Of a stretch of 50,871 nucleotides of DNA, positions 9,729 to 50,871 are shown one piece after another; the first letter of the stretch is position 1, and each line of letters begins with the position of its first letter. The notes under the pieces are model-generated. The model was not told the DNA's origin and did no database searches. It saw only the letters and a list, made by a program, of their open reading frames with translations. Location of the stretch: contig CAKZOC010000213.1 of assembly GCA_937136025.1 (NCBI GenBank), positions 1 to 50,871 on the forward strand, read 5' to 3'. A program made the position numbers and the translations under genes. The DNA is from an uncultured Bacteroidota bacterium (GTDB lineage: Bacteria > Bacteroidota > Bacteroidia > Flavobacteriales > Flavobacteriaceae).

Positions 9729-10008
9729 ATCAGCTACCTCATTTGCTTTCCCGATACTTCTGATGCTATACCTCGGTATTCCACCTCATGTTCCGGGTCA
9801 TGATCTTTTTTCTGGGGTATGGGCACGCGTACCCCTCCTTTCTATTGGGGCCTGATTGTTTTCTGCCTGTTGGGATCCAGGGTTTAATACTTTCGCGCTG
9901 ACGGCCTGTGTACAGGGCAAAAAAGGGGTTTTATAAGCCGAAACCACCGATCGTATCGCTGGATTTGGTCCTAAAAAATTGTACCTTCGCTGGGAATTCA
10001 GGAGCCAT

Positions 10009-11085
10009 ATGCTGGAAAAACTCGAAATTGTAAAACAACGCTTTGATGAGGTCTCCGACCTGATTATCCAGCCGGATATTATTTCCGACCAGAAGAAGTA
10101 CGTCCAACTCAATAAGGAGTACAAGGATCTCAGGGAAATCATGGATAAGCGGGAGCAATATCTCGAATTGCAGGACCGGATAACAGAGGCAGAGGAAATT
10201 CTCGCCGACGGCAGTGATCCTGAGATGACCGAAATGGCCAAACTGCAGCTCGATGAAGCCCGTGGTGCCTTACCCGCTTTGGAGGAGGATGTCAAAATGC
10301 TGCTGGTGCCAAAAGACCCCGAAGACGCCAAAGATGTGGTCATGGAGATCCGCGCGGGAACCGGGGGGGATGAGGCCAGTATTTTTGCGGGAGATCTCTA
10401 CCGTATGTATACCAAGTATTGCGAGTCGAAAGGATGGAAAACCCACGTCCTGGACTTCAGTGAGGGAACCAGCGGGGGATATAAGGAAATCCAGTTTGAA
10501 GTGGCCGGGGAGGATGTCTACGGTACCCTGAAGTTTGAAGCAGGGGTACACCGGGTACAGCGGGTACCGCAAACCGAAACACAGGGACGGGTGCATACCA
10601 GCGCGGCAACCGTGATGGTACTTCCGGAGGCTGAGGATTTTGAAGTTCATATCGACCCCAAGGATGTGCGAATCGATTTCTTCTGTTCCTCAGGGCCTGG
10701 CGGACAATCGGTCAATACGACGTATTCTGCCGTGCGGCTGACGCACGTGCCCACCGGTATTGTGGCCCAGTGCCAGGACGAGAAATCCCAACATAAAAAT
10801 AAGGATAAGGCCTTTAAAGTATTGCGTTCCCGACTCTACGACATGGAGCTGGCCAAGAAGCAGGAAGAAGATGCGGCCAAGCGAAATTCACAGGTGAGTT
10901 CCGGAGATCGTTCGGCCAAAATCCGGACCTACAACTATCCTCAGGGCCGTGTGACAGATCATAGAATCGGCCTTACCCTCTATGATCTTCAGAACATTGT
11001 GAACGGGGATATCCAAAAACTCATAGACGAGCTGATGCTGGTCCACAATACCGAAAAATTAAAAGAGGCCTCTGAAACTTTCTGA
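10009..11085 (+). CDS. prfA: Peptide chain release factor 1
   Basis: RF1 ends translation at UAA and UAG. The 358-residue protein is full length. The codon-reading P-x-T motif appears as P-Q-T in R-V-P-Q-T-E near residue 185, and the peptidyl-transferase G-G-Q motif in [10 protein letters not shown] near 232; both are as in RF1 and not RF2 (which has S-P-F). An upstream in-frame start at 9979 exists, but ATG 10009 is preceded by AGGAG and matches the usual M-L-x-K-L start. The 280 bp upstream (9729-10008) hold no gene I can support. Followed after 6 bp by pyrF. Confidence 0.96.
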
Positions 11086-48540: not shown

Positions 48541-49485
48541 ATGTTAACACGAAGGCATCTCAGGGTTAAGGTAATGCAGTGCATCTATTCCCTATCCCTT
48601 ACCAGCGGAGGTTCGCTGGAAAAGCAACAGGAGTTTCTCAACAGAAGCATCGGGCAGACCTATACCCTGTATCTACTGATACTGGCATTGTTTCGGGAAC
48701 TCTATCAGGCTGCCCTCAATCGCTCGGAGAAGGCTACGAGCAATTACCTTAAAATGGGCCCCGGGGATAAAGGAAATCCACTGCGCCTCAGCCAAAACAA
48801 GATTCTTAAGCAAATTTCGGAGAATCCCGAACTTTCCGAAGCGTTGAAAAAGCGCAAACTCAAGCAGTGGTACCTCAACGAAGAGTATATAAAGATTGTG
48901 CTTTCAGAAGTGCTGCAAAGCGATCTCTATAATGCGTATGCGCAAACCCCTGAATCCTATGAGGCGGACCGGGAATTTCTCGTTCAGGCCTTTAAGGAGA
49001 TTATTGCCCCTAATGAAAAGGTGTACGAATTTCTGGAAGATGAGGAAATTACCTGGGTGGACGATTTGCCACTTGTAAACACCCATTTGCTCAAACAATT
49101 GCGGAAGGTAAAACCCCAATCCCCCCATAATTATTTCCTCCCCCCTTTGCTTAAAAACCAGGAGGACATAACTTTTGCTACCGAACTATTGAATAAAACC
49201 CTTTTGAACGGCGCTGAGTTGGCAGCGGAAATTGAAGGGCAAACCCCCAATTGGGATAAAGACCGCATCGCCGAAATAGATGCCATATTACTAAAGATGG
49301 CGATCGCTGAATTACTGTATTTTCCCTCCGTCCCGGAGCGGGTTTCGATCAATGAATATCTGGAGATAGCCAAGGAGTATTCCACACCCAAAAGCAGTAT
49401 TTTTATCAATGGGGTTTTGGATAAACTCACAAAGGACTATCAGACTGCCGGTCGGTTGAAAAAAACCGGGCGGGGTCTATTGTAA
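48541..49485 (+). CDS. nusB: Transcription antitermination protein NusB (long form)
   Basis: 314 residues, about twice the E. coli length. The start L-T-R-R-H-L-R-V-K-V-M-Q and the C-terminal half (about 215-314), with D-R-I-A-E-I-D-A-I-L-L-K-M-A-I-A-E-L-L and the V-S-I-N-E-Y-L-E-I-A-K-E-Y-S-T segment and G-V-L-D-K-L near the end, fit NusB; the middle is a helical insert common to Bacteroidota NusB. NusB with NusE helps antitermination at rRNA operons. Followed by DUF1573 and yajC, a gene order common in Flavobacteriia. Confidence 0.92.
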   Translation: MLTRRHLRVKVMQCIYSLSLTSGGSLEKQQEFLNRSIGQTYTLYLLILALFRELYQAALNRSEKATSNYLKMGPGDKGNPLRLSQNKILKQISENPELSEALKKRKLKQWYLNEEYIKIVLSEVLQSDLYNAYAQTPESYEADREFLVQAFKEIIAPNEKVYEFLEDEEITWVDDLPLVNTHLLKQLRKVKPQSPHNYFLPPLLKNQEDITFATELLNKTLLNGAELAAEIEGQTPNWDKDRIAEIDAILLKMAIAELLYFPSVPERVSINEYLEIAKEYSTPKSSIFINGVLDKLTKDYQTAGRLKKTGRGLL

Positions 49486-49497
49486 AAAAATAATCGT

Positions 49498-49505
49498 TAA
49501 TTTTG
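49498..49505 (+). promoter_or_regulatory. Promoter -7 box of DUF1573-yajC
   Basis: TAATTTTG; start near 49512, 18 nt before ATG 49530. A TTG 15 bp upstream is at slightly short spacing for a -33 box. Confidence 0.5.
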
Positions 49506-49529
49506 CACTGATCTAAAAAAAATCTAATC

Positions 49530-50015
49530 ATGAAAAAAGTAAGTATCATTCTTGGAGTTCTGGCAATTACGGCTTTTGTTTCCTGTAAGGAGAAGGCCTC
49601 AGAACGCATCGACGAAGGTAATGTAGCGGTAGCTGCTCAAAGGGACGAAGCTGCAAAATCACTTCCCGCTATTGCTTTCGCAGAACAAGAGTTTGATTTT
49701 GGAACTATTGAGCAGGGAACGCCACAGGAGCACACCTTTGTTTTCACCAATACCGGTGAAGCTCCATTGATCATCACCAACGCCACCAGTAGCTGTGGGT
49801 GTACGATTCCGGACTACCCGAAAAACGTGCCAATTCAGCCCGGCGAGCAAGGGGAGATGGTTGTAAAATTCAATGGCTCCGGAATGAATCAGGTCATCAA
49901 AACAGTAACCTTGAGTACCAATACCGCCAAGGGTCAGGAGATGATTCGGATTAAAGCATTTGTTCAGCCTAAGGCGGGAACTTCAACAGCTATGGGTCCT
50001 GTTTCCGGAAACTAA
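49530..50015 (+). CDS. DUF1573 domain-containing lipoprotein
   Basis: 161 residues. Lipoprotein signal (hydrophobic stretch ending V-S-Cys20), then an immunoglobulin-like beta domain: F-D-F-G-T-I-E-Q-G near residue 57, F-T-N-T-G-E-A-P-L-I-I near 72, S-S-C-G-C-T-I-P near 88 and P-G-x-x-G near 108. The family is very common in Bacteroidota and is thought to bind surface partners, but no activity is established. Same transcript as yajC (30-bp gap). Confidence 0.9.
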   Translation: MKKVSIILGVLAITAFVSCKEKASERIDEGNVAVAAQRDEAAKSLPAIAFAEQEFDFGTIEQGTPQEHTFVFTNTGEAPLIITNATSSCGCTIPDYPKNVPIQPGEQGEMVVKFNGSGMNQVIKTVTLSTNTAKGQEMIRIKAFVQPKAGTSTAMGPVSGN

Positions 50016-50045
50016 GGAATTATCAGGATTTAAGATTATAGAACT

Positions 50046-50333
50046 ATGGGTGATTTAGGACAATTTCTTCCGCTGATTTTGATTTTTGCGGTGGCGTATT
50101 TCTTTATGATACGACCCCAGATGAAAAGGCAGAAAGATGAAAAGAAGTTTGCGGAAGCCTTAAAGAAGGGAGACAAAATCATCACGAAAAGCGGTTTGTA
50201 CGGTAAAGTGGTTGAGCTCAATGACAAGGATTTTTCCTGTGTGATCGAGACCATGGCCGGGCGCTTGAAATTTGATCGTTCTGCCATTTCCATGGAGCTG
50301 AGTAACAAACTCAACACCCCTGCCAAAGCGTAG
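50046..50333 (+). CDS. yajC: Preprotein translocase subunit YajC
   Basis: 95 residues: one N-terminal membrane helix (about 5-24, F-L-P-L-I-L-I-F-A-V-A-Y-F-F), the conserved R-P-Q-M-K-R-Q-K-D-E at its end, and the small cytoplasmic beta domain (G-D-K-I-I-T-K-S-G-L-Y-G, then E-T-M-A-G-R-L-K-F-D-R-S-A-I). It accessory to SecDF in protein export. Terminated by the strong hairpin at 50359-50380. In related genomes I would expect the next gene (such as coaE) to follow; none does here. Confidence 0.95.
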   Translation: MGDLGQFLPLILIFAVAYFFMIRPQMKRQKDEKKFAEALKKGDKIITKSGLYGKVVELNDKDFSCVIETMAGRLKFDRSAISMELSNKLNTPAKA

Positions 50334-50358: not shown

Positions 50359-50380
50359 ACACCGGCTTTTTAGCCGGTGT
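50359..50380 (+). terminator. Strong intrinsic terminator after yajC
   Basis: ACACCGGCT-TTTT-AGCCGGTGT, a perfect 9-bp stem extended by AAA/TTT and followed by nine or more T. Confidence 0.92.
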
Positions 50381-50427
50381 TTTTTTTTGTTCCTCCCGGA
50401 ACACATAAAATATTTTTTTGGAGATTT

Positions 50428-50871
50428 GAGCCCCTCAGGGCTCGCATGGAAAGAGGAGAGACCAGGCAGTTGAGTGCAAGACCTATAAAAGTGTATCTTG
50501 TTACTAATTCACTGATACTGTGATTGTAAAAAGGAGGTTTCTGATCAACTCTGATGAATTTGTATTTGGAGACCCAGTAGAAAAGTAGCAAGGAAACGAA
50601 GCTGAGAGGGTAGACAAGAGGCATGCAACTGAAGTAGAGCATACAGAAGAGGAATATTGTGAGTGTTTCAGCATACATGAATTAGATGTTGAAGACCTAT
50701 CCTTTGAGTTTTTATTTCATTTTCTTTTGAGTTGGCTCATTGGCAGCACTACTTTCATTGCATTTCTTAGATATCAGATTGGTGAAGTGATAGAGAAGAA
50801 TGACAATATTAAAAGAAAAAATTCCAACCAAAATGACTTTATGCGAAGCATGAGCAACCCAGTGCTTATCA
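50428..50871 (-). other. Eukaryotic-like (ciliate) reading frame fragment, membrane protein, window end
   Basis: On the minus strand one frame stays open from the window end (about 50870) to near 50445, broken only by TAA (50712-50714), TAG (50697-50699) and TAA (50682-50684); no TGA. With TAA/TAG read as Gln (ciliate nuclear code) it gives a coherent protein: a hydrophobic helix (V-I-L-V-G-I-F-S-F-N-I-V-I-L-L-Y), a lysine-rich loop, F-N-I-Q-F-M-Y-A-E-T-L-T, then C-M-P-L-V-Y-P-L-S-F-V-S-L-L-L-F-Y-W-V and K-P-P-F-Y-N. From memory the core (F-x-x-x-F/Y-R/M-Y-A-x-x-L-T ... G/C-M-P-L-x-Y-P ... Y-W-x-x-K-Y ... P-P-x-Y) resembles ciliate multi-pass membrane proteins of the CSC1/OSCA-like group. The stretch is more AT-rich than the rest. 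Under the bacterial code only a 102-residue frame (50370-50678) remains. The junction is not exact; a GAGCCC/GGGCTC hairpin at 50428-50443 lies near it. Confidence 0.55.

Follow-up and report, generated by a model that had tools for sequence, protein, structure and literature searches.

The yajC locus at the contig end

The window analysed here is an entire contig of 50,871 nucleotides (C213), one of the 280 contigs of a genome of 3,375,498 bases that marker estimates rate as 99.97% complete and 0.35% contaminated. The many small contigs, together with neighbouring contig numbers of like length, suggest that the genome comes from a metagenome assembly. Sequence similarity places the genome in the Robiginitalea group. 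The NusB-like protein encoded on C213 finds its best match in R. aurantiaca M39 (84% identity), and four of its five best named matches are from Robiginitalea; the majority of the 80 matches listed are from other Flavobacteriaceae genera. The gene names used here (NusB, DUF1573, YajC, cyclase and Gfo/Idh) follow the original prediction or general usage and are putative.

The first 3.5 kb of the contig hold three long, bacterial-looking frames. At its 3′ end, a yajC-like gene and its terminator are followed by a short stretch of bacterial DNA and then by a tail of different character:

50046–50333, plus strand: yajC-like gene, the final intact bacterial gene on the contig (open reading frame)
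50360–50388, plus strand: terminator-like hairpin and T run 3′ of yajC (reading of the sequence)
50382–50471, plus strand: intergenic bacterial DNA with a homologous, non-identical counterpart at the end of contig C29 (alignment)
50472–50477, no strand: where foreign DNA most likely joins the bacterial sequence (homology on the bacterial side stops at 50471 and the PF02714 match starts beyond)
50478–50870, minus strand: putative fragment of a eukaryotic RSN1_7TM-type channel gene with TAA and TAG read as sense, open at the contig end (match to PF02714)

Homologues of yajC were found in 58 of the 60 relatives searched, a set that includes the genome itself. The closest YajC (96%) lies at a locus of another genome, L005, where DNA matching the terminator-like hairpin and T run is also present and where a cyclase-like gene in convergent orientation comes next after yajC and the terminator. 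A different gene follows yajC in five of the nine relatives displayed (L009, L010, L013, L016 and L017), and this place is thus variable between species.

A membrane-channel match in the AT-rich tail

The original prediction described the end of the contig as AT-rich, with a minus-strand frame containing only TAA, TAG and TAA as stops, and this description was borne out. G+C content is 0.361 in 50475–50870 vs 0.446 in 49200–50333, and the minus-strand frame at 50430–50870 spans 147 residues in which the only standard stops are TAA, TAG and TAA (codons 53, 58 and 63), grouped within 11 codons, with TGA absent. Three motifs that had been quoted from the frame (CMPLVYP, YWVSKY and KPPFY) were all located in its read-through translation. 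When table 11 is used instead, the longest frame of the tail has 102 residues and extends into the bacterial intergenic DNA.

Taken alone, the stop pattern of the tail is not significant. A TGA-free frame was found in 1340 of 5000 first-order Markov sequences, and 431 of the 5000 had such a frame with at most three TAA or TAG codons; because these equal the tail, the pattern by itself is no evidence and lies within chance. A plus-strand frame of the real tail likewise has no TGA and only two TAA or TAG codons. The absence of TGA had originally been offered as evidence for the genetic code, specifically for the oligohymenophorean or hypotrich type; over 132 codons it carries no weight (431 of 5000 Markov sequences), leaving that code type unsupported.

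Homology takes the tail beyond chance. It was translated with table 6, the ciliate code named in the original prediction. Among 24736 Pfam families, the 147-residue read-through matched PF02714 (RSN1_7TM) at 31.7 bits and E = 1.3e-7, above the curated cut-off of 28.7 bits, and no other family was listed at E up to 10. This family comprises channels of the CSC1/OSCA/TMEM63 type, and the CSC1/OSCA-like membrane protein of the original prediction is supported once TAA and TAG are read as sense. The alignment places residues 24–131 on profile positions 157–263 of 274. It passes through the three stops almost without gaps (108 residues vs 107 profile positions), and the matched stretch has no frameshift. 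Neither the 52 residues ahead of the first stop nor the 63 residues through the last stop (stop included) gave any score when scanned alone, and the 78-residue standard-code half after the last stop reached 21.2 bits alone, below the cut-off. Reading through the stops raises the score by about 10 bits, and since the halves score poorly apart, they support each other only as one frame across the stops.

The tail is the sole PF02714 match in a profile search of the whole genome. In a draw of 395 genomes from the phylum, the genome itself was the only one with a match at E <= 0.001, and in a draw of 397 genomes from the family, four had one; the two draws overlap, each includes the genome itself, and in both this genome alone lies above the cut-off. 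The three other family genomes (E 2.5e-4 to 5.9e-4, two with internal stops) show that an AT-rich hydrophobic frame might score against a membrane profile by chance, and even leucine placed at the stops of the tail still scores 27.7 bits. We nevertheless consider chance hardly credible as an explanation of the match, given an E of 1.3e-7 against 24736 families, the position of all three other family genomes below the cut-off and the single occurrence in the phylum draw.

A PDB sequence search with the fragment returned nothing at E up to 10; a single-sequence AlphaFold2 model of the fragment was too poor for use (mean pLDDT 59, pTM 0.34), and Foldseek with this model gave two matches, each with E near 9. 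The 78-residue half found no relative in GTDB contigs or IMG/VR, scans that may omit the genome itself, and no relatives of the tail were found in the plasmid or phage records searched. In its genome of origin, the fragment would belong to a cation channel of the CSC1/OSCA/TMEM63 type; it is not expected to have a function in the bacterium.

The junction and the origin of the tail

The expected continuation of the bacterial locus was found elsewhere in the assembly. Searched against the genome as DNA, the L005 stretch placed the cyclase-like gene at 10599–11800 of contig C29 (74% identical), a contig of 12,051 bases in which 251 bases are left between this gene and the end. That end aligns with C213 50382–50471 at 81% over 90 columns (88% over the best 64 bases), and its reverse complement begins in a T run resembling that of the yajC terminator. 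After C29, the next-best match in the genome to the same stretch has an E of 0.27. From these alignments, C29 looks like the true neighbour of C213 or the same place in a sister strain, the latter being possible because the stretch that the two contigs share is not identical.

Bacterial homology therefore reaches 50471, while the start of the PF02714 homology depends on the scan: 50478 with the 147 residues and in the genome scan, 50475 with the 78-residue half and 50535 with the trimmed 108 residues. These limits make 50472–50477 the most likely place for the junction, within a firm bracket of 50471–50535. The foreign DNA had been predicted to start at 50428, which is about 45 bases too early, as 50400–50471 is homologous to the C29 end and hence bacterial.

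Homology is thus found on either side, the two homologies meet at roughly this place (less sharply defined on the foreign side), and the gene expected next is at the end of a different contig. Two unrelated homologies that abut about 400 bases short of where a contig stops, when the natural continuation is on another contig, indicate a chimeric assembly. A chimeric contig, the simplest cause named in the original prediction, accounts best for homology to C29 up to 50471 followed by PF02714. We put the probability at about 87% that the 3′ end of C213 is chimeric and that the tail is a gene fragment from a eukaryote, most likely a ciliate, in which TAA and TAG are sense codons. Robiginitalea-group DNA would then extend through yajC and the terminator, plus about 85 bases of intergenic sequence, to about 50471, and the approximately 400 bases from there to the contig end would be a eukaryotic gene fragment, presumably from a ciliate, coding for a portion of the membrane region of a channel of the RSN1_7TM type. 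The join would have arisen from a chimeric read or a false overlap in a mixed sample. Several observations run counter to this reading. The 81–88% identity between C29 and C213 is unlike that of overlapping contigs of one strain, and C29 may belong to another strain. The gene after yajC differs in five of the nine relatives displayed, AT-rich contig ends can be genuine islands, and neither a second ciliate piece in the frames scanned nor a telomere repeat came to light.

The join is contained in one contig, and C213 and C29 could represent two strains, with and without an insert; two other contig pairs of the genome have overlaps of about 97% identity that differ by substitutions only, the pattern of mixed strains. 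These points would suit a horizontal transfer, in which a ciliate gene fragment, non-functional and with its ciliate code kept, would lie behind yajC in the chromosome of a Robiginitalea strain and C29 would come from a strain lacking it. We judge this very unlikely, since there is no second bacterial junction and the fragment continues off the contig end, and since no other genome in the phylum or family draws exceeds the PF02714 cut-off. Moreover, an order-wide DNA search of 395 genomes gave a full-length match of the tail to its own genome only, the rest being short. At E up to 0.01, 86 of the 395 genomes matched, one of them the genome itself; the 85 others (those listed cover 19–43 bases at <=44.6 bits) are treated as chance, although their E values pass the limit.

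Over the 147 residues, reading the stops as Gln (table 6), Glu (table 30) or Tyr (table 29) gives 31.7, 32.6 and 28.5 bits, respectively, the last just below the cut-off of 28.7. Over the trimmed 108 residues, the scores are 33.1 bits for Glu, 32.4 for Lys/Glu, 32.3 for Gln, 32.2 for Lys, 31.7 for Ser, 29.6 for Trp, 28.7 for Tyr and 27.7 for Leu. The four best of these eight assignments lie within 0.9 bits of one another, and the scores therefore make no choice of stop meaning; Gln, which the original prediction had favoured, earns no preference over Glu or Lys (32.3 vs 33.1 and 32.2 bits). Passages of PMC10553269 describe most reported code changes in ciliates as joint reassignments of UAA and UAG, with both read as Gln in many ciliates, Glu in some peritrichs and Tyr in Mesodinium, whereas Oligohymenophorea sp. 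PL0344 reads them as Lys and Glu. A passage of PMC3558436 gives 34% G+C for Oxytricha gene predictions.

A ciliate is our best guess for the donor, judged only from code and composition. The PF02714 scores favour no single residue at the stops, the three stops fall within 11 codons, and their pattern alone is within chance, all of which would suit a chimera with a non-ciliate donor. That donor would be either a different eukaryote in which stops are reassigned or one with the standard code, the in-frame stops then belonging to an intron or to a decayed gene copy. Such a donor is unlikely: the alignment of 108 residues to 107 profile positions crosses the stops with hardly a gap, where an intron would break it, no frameshift occurs across the matched stretch, and ciliates commonly reassign UAA and UAG together according to the passages of PMC10553269 cited above. 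The original prediction also suggested looking for telomere repeats; those of the C4A2 or C4A4 kind gave 0 matches to three repeats in the genome, and a fragment need not carry them.

Other contig ends and comparison with known systems

The search for further foreign pieces covered 100 of the 280 contigs (C1–C20, up to 3 kb; C21–C99 and C158, up to 20 kb). Sixteen of these (1.1–2.9 kb) read as N and were omitted, so that 84 contigs and C213 were analysed. G+C was below 0.38 in 11.8% of 144 contig ends (400 bases each, C213 included) vs 1.2% of 1287 interior windows, which we count only as supporting evidence for a chimera, as real AT-rich islands could explain some of these ends. Eighteen low-coding segments at contig ends were translated, and 20 frames from nine of them were scanned against Pfam, the segments on C78, C81, C87, C37, C60 (two), C35, C95 and C40 being left out. 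No second ciliate piece was recognised among these 20 frames. The matches above cut-off were to RecO_C, CoaE, Rce1-like and Sbt_1 families, which are taken as bacterial, and five more matches fell below the cut-offs. Rfam found three tRNAs in 11 fetched loci and nothing in the window.

Several contig ends merit a description of their own. The start of C47 (15–404, plus strand; G+C 0.31–0.32) carries a RecO_C fragment at 48.1 bits, and a longer recO match lies on C165; this start is possibly another foreign contig end. C158 has a C-terminal CoaE fragment at 9996–10124 (minus strand; 28.5 bits with a cut-off of 27), 196 bases from the contig end, besides a full CoaE on C248, and this end also looks foreign. 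The AT-rich ends C34 1–947 (G+C 0.32) and C64 9415–10548 (0.35) have no long frame, and six read-through frames of each gave no Pfam match above cut-off. The 3′ end of C34 overlaps the 5′ end of C98 over 214 bases and the 3′ end of C38 overlaps the 5′ end of C97 over 150 bases, each overlap being about 97% identical and differing by substitutions alone. A third contig pair overlaps at 78% over 123 bases; such overlaps fit a strain mixture. A repeat of about 150 bases occurs in several copies at C77 11113–15525 and C87 238–3444, 80–87% alike between the two contigs, and is read as a coding motif repeated in tandem membrane-protein genes, which we assume to be DUF6090-like. These repeats raised the idea of integron arrays behind the AT-rich ends, which was dropped: no contig had at least four sites for a simple attC pattern, and the repeats are read as coding. 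A sequencing adapter at the C77 end was likewise rejected, as the matching 11 bases are present in four copies genome-wide and the 13-base core is absent from the sampled contigs.

The tail of C213 is very probably an artefact, joined on by faulty assembly, and no real feature of the bacterium; it should be regarded as contamination instead of a gene of the bacterium. It is irrelevant to the biology of the bacterium, and its value is one of caution: a genome rated 99.97% complete and 0.35% contaminated can still have a contig that ends in eukaryotic DNA, and translation with the standard code makes short "bacterial" membrane ORFs out of such a piece. The tail also hints at a ciliate within the sampled material. 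Were it a true transfer, it would be a eukaryote-to-bacterium event caught with the foreign code intact.

Compared with ciliate nuclear genes (NCBI tables 6, 29 and 30 and the PL0344 code), the tail is alike in carrying in-frame TAA and TAG inside a conserved region, and its G+C of 0.361 comes close to the Oxytricha value of 34% in the passage of PMC3558436; it differs in having no telomere repeat, gene end or second gene. Like members of the RSN1_7TM family (PF02714), it matches profile positions 157–263 of 274 above the curated cut-off, but it holds about 40% of the domain, on the C-terminal side of the seven-transmembrane profile, requires TAA and TAG as sense and is located on a bacterial contig. 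A passage of PMC8862208 names metagenomic assembly as one origin of chimeric sequences, and C213 resembles chimeric metagenome contigs in having a foreign stretch at its end despite a marker contamination of just 0.35%. Unlike those contigs, its foreign part appears to be eukaryotic and to use a non-standard code, so that bacterial gene calling splits the tail into short frames.
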